Source of the DNA: Phycisphaerales bacterium
Lineage (GTDB): Bacteria; Planctomycetota; Phycisphaerae; Phycisphaerales; UBA1924
Assembly (NCBI GenBank): GCA_029260475.1
Contig: JAJDDE010000094.1
Location: 1-38,341, forward strand
Direction: 5' to 3'
DNA: 38,341 nt
In this document: in pieces, positions 30,963-38,341 of the stretch
Layout of the letters: the number at the start of each line of letters is the position of its first letter
Numbering within the stretch: position 1 is the stretch's first letter
Notes under the pieces: model-generated
Databases searched by the model: none
What the model saw: only the letters and a program-made list of their open reading frames with translations
What the model was told of the DNA's origin: nothing
Made by a program: the position numbers and the translations under genes

Positions 30963-31793
30963 TCAGACCCCCGGCATCGCCTTGATTAGGGCGTTGTAAT
31001 CCTCCTGATCAACGACGCCGTCGCCGTTGAAATCCGCCTTCGGATCCTCGTTCTTGATCTGCTCGAGGGCCGACTGGAGTTCGAGCGCATCAACTGCGCC
31101 GTCCTTGTTGGTATCTGCGCCACGCACGCGATGCTCCGTGGTCAGGGTCGTGCGCAGCGTCTTGCGTTCGGTCTCTGACAGTGTGCCGTCGCCGTCGAGA
31201 TCGAAGCGAGCGGTCATTTCTGCCTTCTTGGCCTCGAGCGCCGCCTTGATCTCTTCGCGCTGCGCCTGCGCCTCCTCGCGGCTCACCTTGCCGTCGTTGT
31301 CCGTGTCGAATTCCGCGATCGCCTCGGGGCCAAGAACGCGGGGCATGCGCCCCATGGCGCCGTTCTCACCGCGCGCACCGGGGCCGCCGCGCTTACCGCG
31401 AGCACCGGGGCCACCACGCTCACCGCGAGCGCCCGGACCGCCGCGCATGCCCTCGCCGCCACGCTGCTGAGGCCCCTTCGCGAACATCTCCGTGAGCTCG
31501 GATTGATCGAGCACGCCGTCCTTGTTCGCGTCGAAGCGTTCCATCGCCTTCTGGGCCATCATCTGCGAGCGCTCGGCCTGGTGCGTCTGGTGCTGCGCCT
31601 TGGCGGCATCCTTCTCGGCCTCGGAGAGCACGCCGTCGCCGTCGGTATCGAAGCGCTCCATCAGACGCCCGTTGCGGGGACCGTCCTGACCGCGCTCGGC
31701 GCGGGGACCGGGCTTGCCCGGCTGGGCGACGGCGCTCATGGTCGCGAGCGACAGGGAAAGACCGACAGCAGTAAGAATTGTTGCGGTGCGCAT
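30963..31793 (-). CDS. Secreted six-EF-hand protein with Gly/Arg-rich repeat, 276 aa
   Basis: The signal peptide (TATILTAVGLSLSLATMSAVA) is followed by six EF-hand loops: DTDGDGVLSEAE (49-60), DANKDGVLDQSE (88-99), DTDNDGKVSREE, DLDGDGTLSETE, DTNKDGAVDALE and DFNGDGVVDQED. Between loops two and three lies a linker of three nine-residue repeats (RGGPGARGx), encoded by three 27-bp units at 31365-31445. The protein should bind about six calcium ions outside the cytoplasm; similar proteins in planctomycetes have no established function. The start at 31793 follows GGAGG at five bases, while the open frame upstream to 31877 lacks support. It is a single-gene unit, with a hairpin terminator after it and the fumC terminator before it. 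Confidence 0.88.
   Translation of the reverse strand: MRTATILTAVGLSLSLATMSAVAQPGKPGPRAERGQDGPRNGRLMERFDTDGDGVLSEAEKDAAKAQHQTHQAERSQMMAQKAMERFDANKDGVLDQSELTEMFAKGPQQRGGEGMRGGPGARGERGGPGARGKRGGPGARGENGAMGRMPRVLGPEAIAEFDTDNDGKVSREEAQAQREEIKAALEAKKAEMTARFDLDGDGTLSETERKTLRTTLTTEHRVRGADTNKDGAVDALELQSALEQIKNEDPKADFNGDGVVDQEDYNALIKAMPGV
31365..31445. repeat. Three 27-bp tandem repeats inside the EF-hand gene
   Basis: Units at 31365-31391, 31392-31418 and 31419-31445 differ at only a few bases each and encode the Gly/Pro/Ala/Arg linker of the EF-hand protein. Unit number could vary between strains by slippage. Confidence 0.8.
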
Positions 31794-31881
31794 GCCCGCC
31801 TCCTTCAGTAGGTGTTCTGTGATTCGCTCGGTTCGTTCCGGGCAGGTGGTGCCCATCGAGCGTTGCATGGGGCTCAACGAA

Positions 31882-31960: not shown

Positions 31961-33421
<1,461 letters not shown>

Positions 33422-33474: not shown

Positions 33475-34176
33475 ATGGACGCACGCGAGGCGTATCACCG
33501 CAGGGCCTACCGCATCGCTCTGCTGCTCACCGACAGCGAGGACGCCGCTCTGCGCATCCTCGAGCGCGTCGCCCGCGCGATCCCACAGCCCGAGACGACC
33601 TCGGACGCCCGCTTCGACAGGGCCGTGATCCAGGCCTCCCGCCCGGTGTACGAGTCCCTCAAATCGCCAGAGAACCTCGCTCTCGCAGGCCGGTTCGATC
33701 TCTCGGAAGACGCCCAGCGTCTGTGGCGCGAGGCGCACGCCCTGGAGCCGCAGGTGCTCGAGGCGTGGGTGCTCCGGGATGTGGAGGGGCTCGACGAGGT
33801 CCGCGCCGCCCGCGCCATGGACTGCTCACGCAACGCGCTCGAGAAGATCCACCTCGTGAGCGCCCGGCGCACGCTGACCGAGTCGCTGGGCGAGGCGTAC
33901 TCCCCAGCGCTGCAACGGCTCACCGGGGTCCTCGACACGCTCGATACCGCTCATGCGCTCGCGCACATCGAGGGCGTGCTCCGAGCGCACAAGGCGCGCT
34001 CCCGGCGCAACGCGCTGATCGGCGTGGTGCTCCTCCTTATCGCCTTCGGCCTGATGACCTACGTGCTCTTCGACCTGCTCGCGTGGAACGACCGCGAGGA
34101 CCGCGTCCGCGACGCCGCGAGCAGTGCGTTCTCGAACCCGATCCCGCAGATGCCGACCGACAACGACGCGCCGTGA
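33475..34176 (+). CDS. Sigma-factor-like protein with C-terminal membrane anchor, 233 aa
   Basis: The N-terminal part resembles a worn ECF sigma factor: EAYHRRAYRIALLLTDSEDA (like region 2, but without the D-A-E-D-x-x-Q-E core), and then LEAWVLRDVEGLDEVRAARA plus MDCSRNALEKIHLVSARRTL, which follows the region 4 helix-turn-helix pattern (AF-V-L-R-D-V-E-G-L ... C-S-x-x-x-x-K-x-x-x-x-R-A-R). At about residues 180-205 there is one strong membrane span (ALIGVVLLLIAFGLMTYVLF) and a 28-residue outer tail. A sigma-like domain held at the membrane might be an inactive sensor or be released by proteolysis; both are guesses. The stop overlaps the kinase start (GTGA). First gene of the three-gene signalling operon. 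The sigma relationship is my reading of motif order and needs profile support. Confidence 0.6.
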   Translation: MDAREAYHRRAYRIALLLTDSEDAALRILERVARAIPQPETTSDARFDRAVIQASRPVYESLKSPENLALAGRFDLSEDAQRLWREAHALEPQVLEAWVLRDVEGLDEVRAARAMDCSRNALEKIHLVSARRTLTESLGEAYSPALQRLTGVLDTLDTAHALAHIEGVLRAHKARSRRNALIGVVLLLIAFGLMTYVLFDLLAWNDREDRVRDAASSAFSNPIPQMPTDNDAP

Positions 34177-35726
34177 CGGTCCCGACGGGCCAGTTCGTGC
34201 GCGCGACCGCCGCGACGCGCATCCGCGCGAAGCTGATCCTGCTGCACACGGTCTTTTCACTGACGCTGGGCGTGATCCTGATCCTGACGCTGCGCGTGCC
34301 GGTGAGCGCGTTGCAGGAGGCCTCCAGCGAGCGCGATGCGCTGCTCGCGCTGGAGATCGCGATGGCGGACCCCGGCGCGGAGGACGCGTCGTTCGTGCAG
34401 GGTGTCGAGCTCGATCGGGGGAGCGCCGAGGCGATGGGCCTGAGCGCTGCCTTCGCGAATTCCCTGCGATCGACGCCCGGCGTCCCCGCCTTCCCCTCGA
34501 GCGCCGAGGGTGGCCCCGGCGCGGTCGTGTACGACGAGGGGGCCGGCGCCTTTGTGCGGGCGCGCTCGGTCTCGGTGAAGTCCCTTCGCGCGGTCAGCAG
34601 CATCTACCTGCTGATGACGGTGGCGCTCCTCTCGGTCTACGCGCTGATCGCGCTCACGCTCGAGGTCTTCGTGCTGCCCAAGCAGGTGTACACGCCCATC
34701 GAACGCCTGCGTGCCGCCGACGAAGCGGTGCAGCGGGGCGAACGCGACAGTGAGCTCATCCCCGACGACGAGATCCGGCGCGACGAATTGGGCGAGATCA
34801 TGCGCTCGCGCAACGCCTCGATCGTCAAGCTCCGTGACCAGGAAACGCGCCTCGAAGAACTCCTCGACGAGGTGGAGCGCATCGCCTCCGAATTGAAACG
34901 CAAGAACCACCTCCTGGAGACAGCCCGGCGCAACCTCGCGGACCAGGACCGCCTCGCGAGCCTCGGCATGATGTCCGCGGGCATCGCCCACGAGCTCAAC
35001 ACGCCGCTCTCGGTGCTCAAGGGGTGTACCGAGGAACTCAAGAGCCTGCGGACCAACCCCGACGCCCAGCGTGTGGACCTCATGCTCCGCGTGATCCACA
35101 GGCTCGAGCGCCTCAGCGAGTCGCTGCTCGACTTCGCGCGGGCCAGGCCACCCGCGTACGAGGAGGTGCCCCTCCGCTCGCTGCTCGAGGAATCCTGGAC
35201 GCTCGTCTCGCTCGATCGGGGTGCCAAGGACGTGCTCTTCCGCAACGAGGTCGATCCCGCCATCACCGTCACCGGCGACGACGATCGGCTCACGCAGGTC
35301 TTCGTGAACCTGCTGCGCAACGCGGTGGACGTCTCCGAGGGCCAGCGCGACCTCGTGATCGAGGTGAGCGCCGAGCCCACGCAGCGCGACGGAGCGAAGT
35401 GGGTGAGCGTCCTCATCGCTGACAACGGCCCTGGCATCGCCCCCGCCATGCTGCCCAGGCTCTTCGAGCCCTTCTCCTCGACGCGCCTCGACGCGCAGGG
35501 CACGGGCCTGGGGTTGGCGGTCGCCGAGGGCATCGTGAAAGAGCACGCGGGCGTGGTCCTTGCGCGCAACCGCATGACGCCCGAAGTCGGCGCGGAGTTC
35601 GAGGTCGTCCTGCCCGCCCAGCGCCCGGCCCAGCACCCGCTGCCAAGCTCGGTGGGGCTGGACGAGGATGCGCCCGAGTACAGTGACGCCGACGACACCC
35701 CAGAACCCCGGAGCACCGGCGCGTGA
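34173..35726 (+). CDS. Membrane sensor histidine kinase, 517 aa
   Basis: Two membrane spans (about residues 19-41 and 142-167) enclose an outer sensor domain of about 100 residues with no recognised fold. A HAMP-like linker (YTPIERLRAADEAVQRG) and a coiled coil (LRDQETRLEELLDEVERIAS) lead to the HisKA domain with His273 in SAGIAHELNTPLSVLKG. The ATPase domain shows the N box (VFVNLLRNAVDVSEG, Asn383), G1 (IADNGPGIAPAML), F box (LFEPFSSTR) and G2 (GTGLGLAVAEGIV). All catalytic parts are intact. The GTG at 34173 overlaps the stop of the sigma-like gene as GTGA, and its own stop overlaps the response regulator start in the same way, so the three proteins are made in a coupled fashion and are very likely functional partners. 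Confidence 0.93.
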   Translation: MTVPTGQFVRATAATRIRAKLILLHTVFSLTLGVILILTLRVPVSALQEASSERDALLALEIAMADPGAEDASFVQGVELDRGSAEAMGLSAAFANSLRSTPGVPAFPSSAEGGPGAVVYDEGAGAFVRARSVSVKSLRAVSSIYLLMTVALLSVYALIALTLEVFVLPKQVYTPIERLRAADEAVQRGERDSELIPDDEIRRDELGEIMRSRNASIVKLRDQETRLEELLDEVERIASELKRKNHLLETARRNLADQDRLASLGMMSAGIAHELNTPLSVLKGCTEELKSLRTNPDAQRVDLMLRVIHRLERLSESLLDFARARPPAYEEVPLRSLLEESWTLVSLDRGAKDVLFRNEVDPAITVTGDDDRLTQVFVNLLRNAVDVSEGQRDLVIEVSAEPTQRDGAKWVSVLIADNGPGIAPAMLPRLFEPFSSTRLDAQGTGLGLAVAEGIVKEHAGVVLARNRMTPEVGAEFEVVLPAQRPAQHPLPSSVGLDEDAPEYSDADDTPEPRSTGA

Positions 35727-36361
35727 AAGACCAGCCGACCAACGAGATCGCGAGCGATGCGCCCACCCTGGACATCGTCGCGCTGGACGACGACGCGGAC
35801 TTCCGCGAGTACATCCGGGCCGCCCTCGAGACCGATGGGCACACCGTCCGCGTCTGCGCCACGCCCGACGAGTGCTACGAGGCCAACGAGGAGCGTCTGC
35901 CCGACGTGCTGCTGCTCGACATGAACATGGGGCGTCACTCGGGGCAGGAGGTACTCGAGACGGTGCGAGATCGCTGGAGCAAGCTCTGCGTGATCGTGAT
36001 CACCGGGCACCCCTCGATGGAAACGATGCGCACCACCTTCAAGCAGGACGTCTTCGACTACATCGCCAAGCCCTTCAGTCTCGATGTCCTCCGCGCCGCC
36101 CTCGCCTCAGCCGCCAGCGCCTTCGACCTGGGCCGATCCGACGCCGCCCGCCTCCGCAGCGAGCTCGGGCGGCGCATCCGCCTGGCCCGCACCGAAAAGG
36201 GCTGGACGCTCAAAGAGCTCTCAGAATCCTCCGGCGTCAGCGTCTCCCAGCTCTCCAGCATCGAGCGCGGCGCCCACCTCCCCTCGCTGGAGAGCCTCGT
36301 CGCGGTCGCCAGTGCCCTCGACGACGCCCCTTCGCGCTGGCTCGACGCCGCGGGCTTCTGA
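35723..36361 (+). CDS. Response regulator with XRE/Cro-type HTH output domain, 212 aa
   Basis: The receiver domain covers about residues 16-132, with the acidic pocket LDDDADF (Asp22-24), phospho-acceptor Asp66 in LLLDMNMG, Thr94 in VIVITGHP and Lys116 in YIAKPFSLDVL, a complete and probably active set. The output domain (about 146-206) is a lambda-repressor-like HTH: ELGRRIRLARTEKGWTLKEL, then SESSGVSVSQLSSIERG and PSLESLVAVASAL. In most bacteria receiver domains are joined to OmpR, NarL, NtrC or LytTR outputs, so this pairing is uncommon. The GTG start at 35723 overlaps the kinase stop. Its targets may include its own operon or the TPR gene 75 bases downstream, by inference. Confidence 0.9.
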   Translation: MKDQPTNEIASDAPTLDIVALDDDADFREYIRAALETDGHTVRVCATPDECYEANEERLPDVLLLDMNMGRHSGQEVLETVRDRWSKLCVIVITGHPSMETMRTTFKQDVFDYIAKPFSLDVLRAALASAASAFDLGRSDAARLRSELGRRIRLARTEKGWTLKELSESSGVSVSQLSSIERGAHLPSLESLVAVASALDDAPSRWLDAAGF

Positions 36362-36436: not shown

Positions 36437-38341
36437 ATGGCCTCCTCCCGCCAGATCGCGCGTCTCGTCATCACCTCGGGCTCCATCAGCTCCGGCGCGG
36501 TCCGCACCGCGATGGGGCGCACCCAGACGCCGCAGGGCGGATTGGAGATCCTGCCCGATCTCCTGACGCTGCTCGCGGAGACCACCTGCGTCTCCAGCCA
36601 GCACGACGACGAGACCGTCCGGCGCATCGCCAACTTCCTCGCGCGACTCGTGCTCCGCTACGGCACGGTCCGGCGCGCCTTCGACGCACTGGCCTCCGGG
36701 CGCCGGCGCCACGCGCTCGTCTCCAACGAGCGCGCCAACGCGTGGGCGCAGATCCTGAGCGTCTCGCCTGCCGCCATCGAGCACACGCTCGCGCGCCAGT
36801 CCTGGCTCCGCATCCACCTCAGCAAGTGGGCGACCGCCTACGGCCCATCGCTCGTCCAGAAGCTCGCCGACTTCGACGCCTGGTTCGACGGCCCCCTCCC
36901 CGGCTCCGACGGCGAGGAGGACTGCCCGCTCCTCCAGCAGATCGCACGCGAGAGCGACCGTTCGGGCAGCCACGCGCCTGAGAAGCCGGCGGAAGCCAGC
37001 GCCGCGAGCGAGGTCGAGCCAGACAACGAGCCGGTCGCCACAGACGAGATGGTGGTCTCCGATGGCGGCATCGCGATGACGGGCGACAAGGTCGATGACA
37101 AGCCCGCCGAAGCTGGCGACGCGGAACTCATCAAGCGTCTGCTCGACGAAAAACGGCCCGGCGAGTGGGCCGCCGAATGGCGACTGCGCGAGCACGAACA
37201 GCACGCCGCCGAGCGGCTGATGCACGACCCTGAGCCGCTGAACCGCACTCTGGGTGCGCTGGCCCTGCGCAAGCTCACCCTCGTCGATGATCTCCTGGGC
37301 GAGATCAAGGGCAACGACGCGGAGCGCGAGACGCGCACGGGCGACCGCTGGTACCTCAAGGGCAACTACGACCGCGCGATCGACCACTACCGCGCCGCGC
37401 GTCGTCTCAACGACGACGACATCCGGCGGCGCAACATCGCCCTCTCGCTGCTGCACCTCGAGAAGGGCCACCGCGACGACTCCACGCGGGAGGCGCTGGA
37501 CCTGCTCACGCAGACCGTCTCGGACCAGCCCGCAGGGAGCCAGTCGCGCGCCTGCGCGCTCGTGATCTTGGGGCTCGCATGGGTCGCCTCACCCTCGCGC
37601 GATCGCGACCACGCGCTGCACGAGGCGCTCCGCTGCTTCGAGCAGGCCTCGACCATCTTCAACGTCACCGAAGAGCCCGACTGGTGGTGCGAGACCAGGC
37701 TCCACCTCGCCCACGCCTGGCTCGACATGCCCACCGGCGACCGCTTCCAGAACGTGGAGCGCGCGATCGGTGCGCTCCGCCAGACCGAGAAGATCTGGAC
37801 GCGCGACAACCAGCCCGAGCGCTGGGCCAGCATCCAGAACGCCCTCGGGCACGCGTGGGAACGCCTCCCCGCCAACGACCGGGGCGTCACCATCGAGCGC
37901 TCCATCGCCTGCTTCTCCGCCGCCCTGAGCGTGCGCACCAAGGACGACCACCCCGCCCACTGGGCGCGCCTCCAGAACAACCTGGGCAACACCTGGATCC
38001 AGCTCCCGTCGGGGGACCACCGCCAGAACGTCGAGCGCGGCATCGCGTCGCACCAGGCGGCGCTCGAGGTCTGGTCCAAGCTGGGCAGGCGCAACGAGTG
38101 GGCCGCGACGCAGAGCAACCTGGGCAACGCGTGGGCGTTGCTCCCCGGGCAGAAGCAGGAGCGCGAGAAGAACATGCGCCGCGCCATCGCCTGCTACCGC
38201 AGCGCCCTCGAGGTCCGCACCAAGGGCACCCACCCGAGCGAATGGGCCGCCACCCTCAACAACCTCGGCACCGCGCTCCTCCACCTGCCCGTGCAAGGGC
38301 GCGGCACACAGGTCAAGGAAGCCATCGAGTGCTTCGAGCAG
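36437..38341 (+). CDS. Large TPR-repeat protein, first 635 residues (cut by window edge)
   Basis: The frame is open from ATG 36437 to the last base. Residues 1-165 form a helical domain I do not recognise (begins MASSRQIARLVITSGSISSG). An acidic, probably disordered linker follows (about 165-230). From about 290 there are TPRs, first canonical (GDRWYLKGNYDRAIDHYRAA) and then, from about 410, long repeats of about 55-60 residues with the consensus EWAxxQxNLGNAW, LPxGDRxxNVERAIAC and ALEVRTK. Such long units are typical of proteins that carry a CHAT protease or other effector domain next to the repeats; any such domain would lie beyond the window. No signal peptide is seen, so it is probably cytoplasmic. 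It follows the response regulator gene by 75 bases on the same strand. Confidence 0.8.
   Translation, partial: MASSRQIARLVITSGSISSGAVRTAMGRTQTPQGGLEILPDLLTLLAETTCVSSQHDDETVRRIANFLARLVLRYGTVRRAFDALASGRRRHALVSNERANAWAQILSVSPAAIEHTLARQSWLRIHLSKWATAYGPSLVQKLADFDAWFDGPLPGSDGEEDCPLLQQIARESDRSGSHAPEKPAEASAASEVEPDNEPVATDEMVVSDGGIAMTGDKVDDKPAEAGDAELIKRLLDEKRPGEWAAEWRLREHEQHAAERLMHDPEPLNRTLGALALRKLTLVDDLLGEIKGNDAERETRTGDRWYLKGNYDRAIDHYRAARRLNDDDIRRRNIALSLLHLEKGHRDDSTREALDLLTQTVSDQPAGSQSRACALVILGLAWVASPSRDRDHALHEALRCFEQASTIFNVTEEPDWWCETRLHLAHAWLDMPTGDRFQNVERAIGALRQTEKIWTRDNQPERWASIQNALGHAWERLPANDRGVTIERSIACFSAALSVRTKDDHPAHWARLQNNLGNTWIQLPSGDHRQNVERGIASHQAALEVWSKLGRRNEWAATQSNLGNAWALLPGQKQEREKNMRRAIACYRSALEVRTKGTHPSEWAATLNNLGTALLHLPVQGRGTQVKEAIECFEQ

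Follow-up and report, generated by a model that had tools for sequence, protein, structure and literature searches.

A predicted tail-anchored, sigma-like protein encoded with a two-component system in Phycisphaerales

The window analyzed here is a 38,341-nt stretch from a Phycisphaerales bacterium (contig JAJDDE010000094.1 of assembly GCA_029260475.1), and it contains a three-gene unit at positions 33475-36361, with all genes on the + strand. The first gene (33475-34176) encodes a 233-aa protein that we call SIG, the second a membrane histidine kinase of 517 aa (34173-35726), and the third a response regulator of 212 aa with an XRE-type output domain (35723-36361). SIG has the two-domain fold of an extracytoplasmic function (ECF) sigma factor, in a form that has lost recognizable sigma signatures and is predicted to be anchored in the membrane. 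We tentatively favor the reading, with a little less than even confidence, that it is a tail-anchored sigma mimic, a binding decoy or adaptor recruited to a place next to a core two-component system. PhyR is the best-known case of sigma mimicry, and SIG brings together two themes that are each known, the degenerate mimicry of sigma factors and the anchoring of ECF domains in the membrane, in a combination that we have not found described. The SIG family has no name in Pfam or NCBIfam, and among titles and abstract openings of the open-access literature we found no tail-anchored sigma mimic in a two-component operon.

A degenerate sigma fold

The similarity of SIG to sigma factors is weak for the single protein and, judged from sequence profiles, firm at the level of the family. 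Taken alone, SIG matches the NCBIfam sigma factor model PRK09047 over residues 80-140 (1.7e-6, far under that model's cut-off), whereas no Pfam model reaches its cut-off and a phmmer search of the PDB yielded nothing usable. It is absent from the 21 Sigma70_r2 matches of its own genome, and falls short of the Pfam cut-offs by which an ECF sigma factor is recognized (Sigma70_r2 together with Sigma70_r4 or Sigma70_r4_2). Relatives were gathered from 163 genomes of the same family to give an alignment of 19 SIGs (A1), in which 15 members match PRK09047, six match Pfam Sigma70_r4_2 and three match PhyR_sigma-like at E 0.01. When ten relatives were scanned singly, two passed the Pfam cut-off for Sigma70_r4_2, one of these also that for Sigma70_ECF, and none matched Sigma70_r2 at 0.01.

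Profile and structure comparisons extend this similarity to both sigma domains. The SIG profile aligns by hhalign with the sigma factors of its own genome (95.8%, E 7e-9), and the 138 aligned columns extend from sigma2 to sigma4; the control profile had 16 rows, including one protein that is no sigma factor (L226) and was removed from the later comparisons with 15 controls. Among PDB sequences, the profile finds ECFs with values between 9e-4 and 4e-3, and a regulator of the PhyR type at 7e-3. An AlphaFold model built from the 19 sequences (mean pLDDT 93.4) superposes by VIA-align on SigW bound to RsiW with a Z of 14.8 (130 residues, rmsd 3.3), followed by RpoE with NepR (14.3), PhyR (13.6) and CnrH with CnrY (13.5), with values below about 13 being of the kind that may reflect an arrangement common in helical bundles. 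By hhalign and VIA-align, SIG therefore contains the sigma2 and sigma4 domains of the ECF fold. The original prediction had described the first protein as degenerate, membrane-held and sigma-like, and this description agrees with the fold, the homology, the missing signatures and the predicted anchor. Its proposed check against sigma profiles gave a divided result: the similarity holds for the family (the hhalign match above), and the single protein stays under the Pfam cut-offs.

The sigma2-like helices of SIG (residues 1-62; 33475-33660, + strand) do not carry the D..Q core-binding motif. Of the 15 own-genome sigma factors, 13 have a D..Q among their first 90 residues, compared to 2/19 SIGs and 3/18 outgroup SIGs, and in the two SIGs that have it the motif lies at the extreme N-terminus, outside region 2.2 and not in the homologous place. 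The sigma2.3/2.4 signature is not recognizable in the SIG alignment. The sigma4-like part (residues 76-154; 33700-33936, + strand) carries the family's AMDCS helix-turn-helix (HTH) motif, and MDCS was counted by eye in 15/19 A1 members and in all 18 outgroup members called. In the recognition-helix stretch, the mean net charge drops from +3.3 in the controls (9 of 16 rows) to +1.3 in SIGs (19/19) and -0.4 in outgroup SIGs (16/18), with Mann-Whitney values of 0.001 and 4e-5 for rows that are related by descent.

All 19 A1 SIGs and 17 of the 18 outgroup SIGs have a predicted C-terminal transmembrane (TM) helix, compared to none of the 15 control sigma factors; the eighteenth outgroup SIG scores 1.41 against a hydropathy threshold of 1.6. 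For the window SIG, the predicted helix spans residues 181-199 (34015-34071, + strand), with a 19-residue hydropathy peak of 2.68 at residue 181, five K/R in the 15 residues before it and three after it. The mean K/R ratio before and after the helix is 6.1:1.1 in A1 and 5.7:0.9 in the outgroup. Because the K/R excess precedes the TM helix, the sigma-like part should face the cytoplasm, and the remaining 34 residues of the window SIG are predicted, from hydropathy and K/R count, to lie outside. Tails past the helix range from 0 to 64 residues and are at most 13 residues long in 28 of 37 members. No Pfam match to a zinc anti-sigma domain occurs between sigma4 and the TM helix in the window SIG or ten relatives, and the window SIG has no match to Response_reg. 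With D..Q missing, a less basic recognition helix and a membrane anchor, SIG looks unable to initiate transcription.

An ordinary two-component pair

The kinase and the regulator form an ordinary two-component system. The kinase consists of a TM helix, a small periplasmic domain, a second TM helix, and HisKA (34965-35147; 4.5e-11) and HATPase_c (35274-35621; 1.3e-21) domains, both on the + strand and above the Pfam cut-offs, with a HAMP-like stretch that was judged by eye only. The sensor domain has no Foldseek match at 0.001 and no clear fold name; its best match is an integrative model of WalK (4e-3). The regulator has a receiver domain (35777-36103; Response_reg 5.7e-22) and an XRE DNA-binding domain (36176-36322; HTH_3 4.2e-13), again on the + strand and above cut-off, and the residues D22-D24, D66, T94 and K116 are invariant in nine aligned sequences (the window and eight relatives). 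Phosphotransfer from the HisKA/HATPase_c kinase to the receiver, with its conserved phosphorylation residues, is predicted. The two-component pair with XRE output that had been called from the sequence is thus confirmed by these domain matches. Output domains of the XRE type are uncommon in two-component systems.

The regulator is a core gene of this Phycisphaerales family, being found in 150 of the 163 genomes, with a single match in 149, and the core kinase/receiver-XRE (REC-XRE) pair can be studied by itself. Among 392 genomes of the phylum, relatives of the regulator outside the family occur in G218 (49% identity), in 22 genomes of family f49 (33-36%) and in G186, G190, G210 and G273 (31-38%). 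In the four f49 loci fetched (L180, L181, L182 and L186), the adjoining kinase is longer (about 790 aa) and overlaps the REC-XRE gene by 8 nt. Many of the fetched loci that have the pair without SIG (L118-L177, e.g., L124:1509-6907) place it next to PTS-IIA-like, rsmB-like and lpxB-like genes, which were grouped by gene clustering and named from the L124 copies, hinting at a link of the pair with the envelope or with nitrogen/PTS functions.

Distribution and coupling of the three genes

A profile search of the 163 family genomes found SIG at E 1e-14 or better in 25 genomes. G095 (5.8e-7) was also counted because its match sits at the syntenic place, for a total of 26; weaker matches in 14 of 40 family genomes (E 1e-8 to 1e-5, mostly to the sigma4 part only) were not counted. 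SIG lies directly upstream of the kinase in 14 of the 26 SIG-bearing genomes (G000, G020, G032, G042, G059, G091, G093, G095, G099, G100, G102, G107, G110 and G124), which we refer to as linked, and about 5 kb upstream of it in G098. The three-gene order is therefore conserved in relatives, as the original prediction required, and the 13 linked genomes that could be placed fall in one clade. In public records fetched by regulator (80 loci examined, overlapping with the 163-genome set), SIG is in place in 12 of the 65 loci that have a kinase and enough upstream sequence. All 80 records are metagenome-assembled genomes or titled uncultured, and most are Phycisphaerales or Phycisphaeraceae.

Both junctions in the window read GTGA, at 34173-34176 (SIG stop and kinase start) and at 35723-35726 (kinase stop and regulator start), as had been reported. 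A start codon that allows the same 4-nt overlap between SIG and kinase is present in 8 of 13 linked loci, the window included, and the kinase-regulator junction allows the same overlap in 9 of the 12 linked loci where a start was found. These counts cover 13 loci, since the operon of the fourteenth linked genome (G059) is split over two contigs. The recurrence of the overlap in linked loci shows that the coupling is not due to chance, and the overlaps fit the proposed co-expression of the three genes. As a system, the three genes stand in part: their order is kept in 14 genomes, but an obligate association is not supported, with SIG and the pair each occurring without the other.

The linked module is found beside fumC in eight genomes, beside FecCD-type transport genes in three, and beside an ECF sigma gene or operon in two, while in G124 the contig ends beside the module and the setting is not visible. 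In the window, fumC (31961-33421, - strand) is a divergent neighbor outside the unit, about 53 bp from SIG. Control of metabolism through fumC had been suggested on this basis; with fumC next to only 8 of the 14 linked modules and other settings in five, we reject it as a general idea. In the fumC sub-clade, the SIGs have in common a short tail on the outer side with an FSNPMP-like end (34072-34173 in the window; also in L031, L032, L033, L049, L050 and L054). By eye, this ending was not seen in other unlinked SIGs; it is kept in G060, in which no kinase was found.

Origin of the linkage

A FastTree phylogeny built on kinase and regulator together holds 74 of 75 rows, G033 having been dropped because it had too few columns; G059, whose operon is split over two contigs, was not entered. 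In this tree, the 13 linked rows lie within one clade of 19 rows with a local support of 99. The clade also holds G098, four genomes without SIG (G012, G029, G069 and G109), and G058, which was scored as having none, though its contig ends before the SIG position. The SIG tree is weakly supported, and in it the linked SIGs form two main groups plus G020. SIG thus took its place upstream of the pair within a single clade, and a single gain that was followed by losses is the simplest and a plausible account of these trees.

SIG is also found beyond the family. Among 347 genomes of the class, 3 from two other families of the order and 17 from family f105 have near full-length SIGs; weaker, mostly partial matches in 26 of 54 genomes were not counted as SIG. 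For the 20 SIG-bearing genomes outside the family, and for G060 and G035, there is no full-length regulator among the matches listed, where one match, in G595, reaches residue 190 of the regulator. Judging from its presence elsewhere in genomes, in other families and in G060, SIG is older than the operon linkage. G060 is a genome that apparently lost the kinase-regulator pair and kept SIG.

The neighbors of unlinked SIGs are, where identified, mostly housekeeping genes. Gene clustering of the f105 loci (L201-L217) places a gene for a DUF456-type membrane protein near SIG in 9 of 16 and a gene of the AddB type near it in 5 of 16; these identities come from Pfam matches of the L207 and L210 copies (DUF456-type) and of the L207 copy (AddB-type). 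The SIG neighborhoods in unlinked and f105 genomes suggest no partner.

Possible function of SIG

If SIG is a sigma mimic, its ECF-like sigma2-sigma4 part would lie inside the cell, tethered to the inner membrane by the one C-terminal helix, and would serve as a protein-binding decoy or adaptor and not as a sigma factor. It would hold at the membrane a partner that recognizes the closed sigma2-sigma4 shape, which might be an anti-sigma factor, as for PhyR, or another regulator. In the linked clade, where SIG and the kinase would be co-produced, the two-component system could set, or be adjusted by, the amount of partner held; SIG would thus be tied to the kinase in amount and perhaps in function. 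An input from SIG to the kinase, as the original prediction had proposed, is a putative role. A more specific proposal, which we consider unlikely, is that the operon is PhyR taken apart, with a tethered mimic, a kinase and an XRE regulator acting as a partner switch outside Alphaproteobacteria. The kinase would then control how the sigma-shaped part catches an anti-sigma factor, or some other regulator, at the membrane, and the class-wide SIG family would represent a general, unnamed way to hold sigma partners at the membrane.

Several observations weigh against the sigma mimic reading. Ten of the 26 SIG-bearing genomes have SIG elsewhere, at a distance from the pair, and most family genomes have the pair without SIG (150/163 for the regulator, 26/163 for SIG). 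G060, an assembly of about 20 contigs that is 95% complete, retains SIG beside fumC, and neither a kinase (at 1e-40) nor a full-length regulator was found in it. Comparison of the neighborhoods revealed no partner of SIG, nor an anti-sigma gene that recurs beside it throughout. By Foldseek alone, SIG has no match at E <=0.001, the best being 4.3e-3 with a probability of 1.00. The recognition-helix test omitted 7 of 16 control and 2 of 18 outgroup rows that lack the searched motif, and the window SIG retains four basic residues in this stretch, so that it may still bind DNA. The linked state needs four changes on the kinase-regulator tree (shuffled mean 12.2) and four on the SIG tree (shuffled mean 11.3), a single change being found in 0 of 200 bootstrap trees for SIG, and therefore one gain of linkage requires several losses. 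Finally, compared with the window proteins, those of 12 linked genomes have a median identity of 35% (SIG), 55% (kinase) and 67% (regulator), and such fast divergence of SIG is compatible both with weak constraint and with an interface that changes.

Alternatively, SIG may be a stand-alone regulator, functionally unrelated to the pair and co-transcribed with it by chance in one clade. We judge this somewhat less probable than a sigma mimic, though nearly as likely, based on G060 and the unlinked genomes: SIG can be distant from the pair (as in the ten genomes above, or by 5 kb in G098), persists beside fumC in G060, and occurs outside the family with no full-length regulator among the matches listed. 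What speaks for a connection is that the SIG-kinase order has been held in 14 genomes across three chromosomal settings, leaving aside the unseen setting of G124, and that the 4-nt overlap is possible in 8 of 13 loci, whereas passive adjacency would be expected to break up.

Two further explanations would keep SIG as a direct regulator of transcription. It might be a latent sigma factor or activator that is held in the membrane and freed by regulated proteolysis, like the fused ECF IutY. The sigma2-sigma4 fold followed by a C-terminal TM helix would suit this, and C-terminal membrane extensions are described for IutY (ECF243) and for ECF48, ECF52 and ECF53 in PMC8999054. However, D..Q is not in place, the sigma2.3/2.4 signature is not recognizable, the recognition helix is less basic, and there is no Pfam zinc anti-sigma domain between sigma4 and the TM helix; because these polymerase- and promoter-contact signatures are missing, we doubt that SIG is a latent sigma factor. 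It is still more improbable that SIG is a one-component regulator which binds DNA through its sigma4-type HTH while in the membrane. Such a protein would be similar to ToxR, whose topology (a cytoplasmic HTH, one TM helix and a short outer tail) SIG resembles, and the widely kept MDCS motif and the four K/R of the window SIG helix stretch are in keeping with DNA binding. The mean net charge of -0.4 in 16 outgroup members would nonetheless be unusual for a DNA reader, and the tail of most members, at 13 residues or less, is too short for a sensor.

Relation to known systems

Sensor kinases with membrane accessory proteins include WalK with YycH and YycI, and PhoQ with MgrB. SIG is similar to these accessories in being a putative single-TM partner of a kinase, and the sensor region of the kinase in the window has the WalK model as its closest Foldseek match. 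To our knowledge, the accessory proteins have no sigma fold; in addition, they act on the kinase, whereas contact between SIG and its kinase is only putative.

PhyR, of the PhyR-NepR-EcfG system of Alphaproteobacteria, is described in PMC8103513 as a protein that keeps the ECF fold with degenerate polymerase and promoter contacts, binds NepR and works with histidine kinases. SIG shares with it the degenerate sigma2-sigma4 domain, as seen in the structural match (Z 13.6) and in the Pfam PhyR_sigma-like matches of 3/19 SIGs, which are under the cut-off in two SIGs scanned singly. PhyR differs in having its own receiver domain, while SIG is predicted to be membrane-anchored, has no Response_reg match, and has the receiver on the separate XRE protein. 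The fused membrane ECFs likewise have a C-terminal TM part behind an ECF-type domain. PMC8999054 presents IutY, ECF48, ECF52 and ECF53 as sigma factors activated by proteolysis, and describes a zinc-finger domain in ECF48/52/53, whose extensions can reach 400 residues; SIG is without sigma signatures and without a zinc domain match, and has a tail of 0-64 residues. In CseA-SigE-CseBC of Streptomyces and similar loci, a sigma factor, a kinase and a regulator work together (PMC8999054). There the sigma factor is active and controlled by the two-component system, whereas SIG seems not to function as a sigma factor and is predicted to be membrane-bound.

As a mimic, SIG would represent a second, membrane-bound form of sigma mimicry, in several families of a mostly uncultured class. 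Its partner, if found, could show how Planctomycetota restrain or release their ECF sigma factors (the genome studied here has 21 Sigma70_r2 matches).

Sequences around the operon

The SIG operons of G099 and G020 (L048:3225-6256 and L052:1635-4590) have a putative ECF sigma gene as their divergent neighbor, and behind that gene come genes for a small TM protein and for a protein that looks secreted. Pfam confirms the sigma factor of G099, and the G020 copy clusters with it. As a clue to SIG, this neighboring operon was set aside, being present in two genomes only.

Upstream of SIG, a search for perfect inverted repeats (arms of 6-7) found no pair of arms shared by the 13 loci under comparison. 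In several genomes, a -10-like element (e.g., TAGAAT or GACAAT) was noted by eye about 8-20 nt 5' of the SIG start and, if it counts, would suggest a leaderless or short-leader SIG transcript.

Downstream of the regulator in the window, an ORF on the + strand (36437-38341) that reaches the window end encodes a protein with weak TPR matches; its relatives lie downstream of the module in L033, L041 and L055, and near SIG in L050. An ORF on the - strand (30963-31877) has EF-hand-like DxDxDG repeats and a Gly/Arg-rich GARGxRGGP stretch, both noted by eye.

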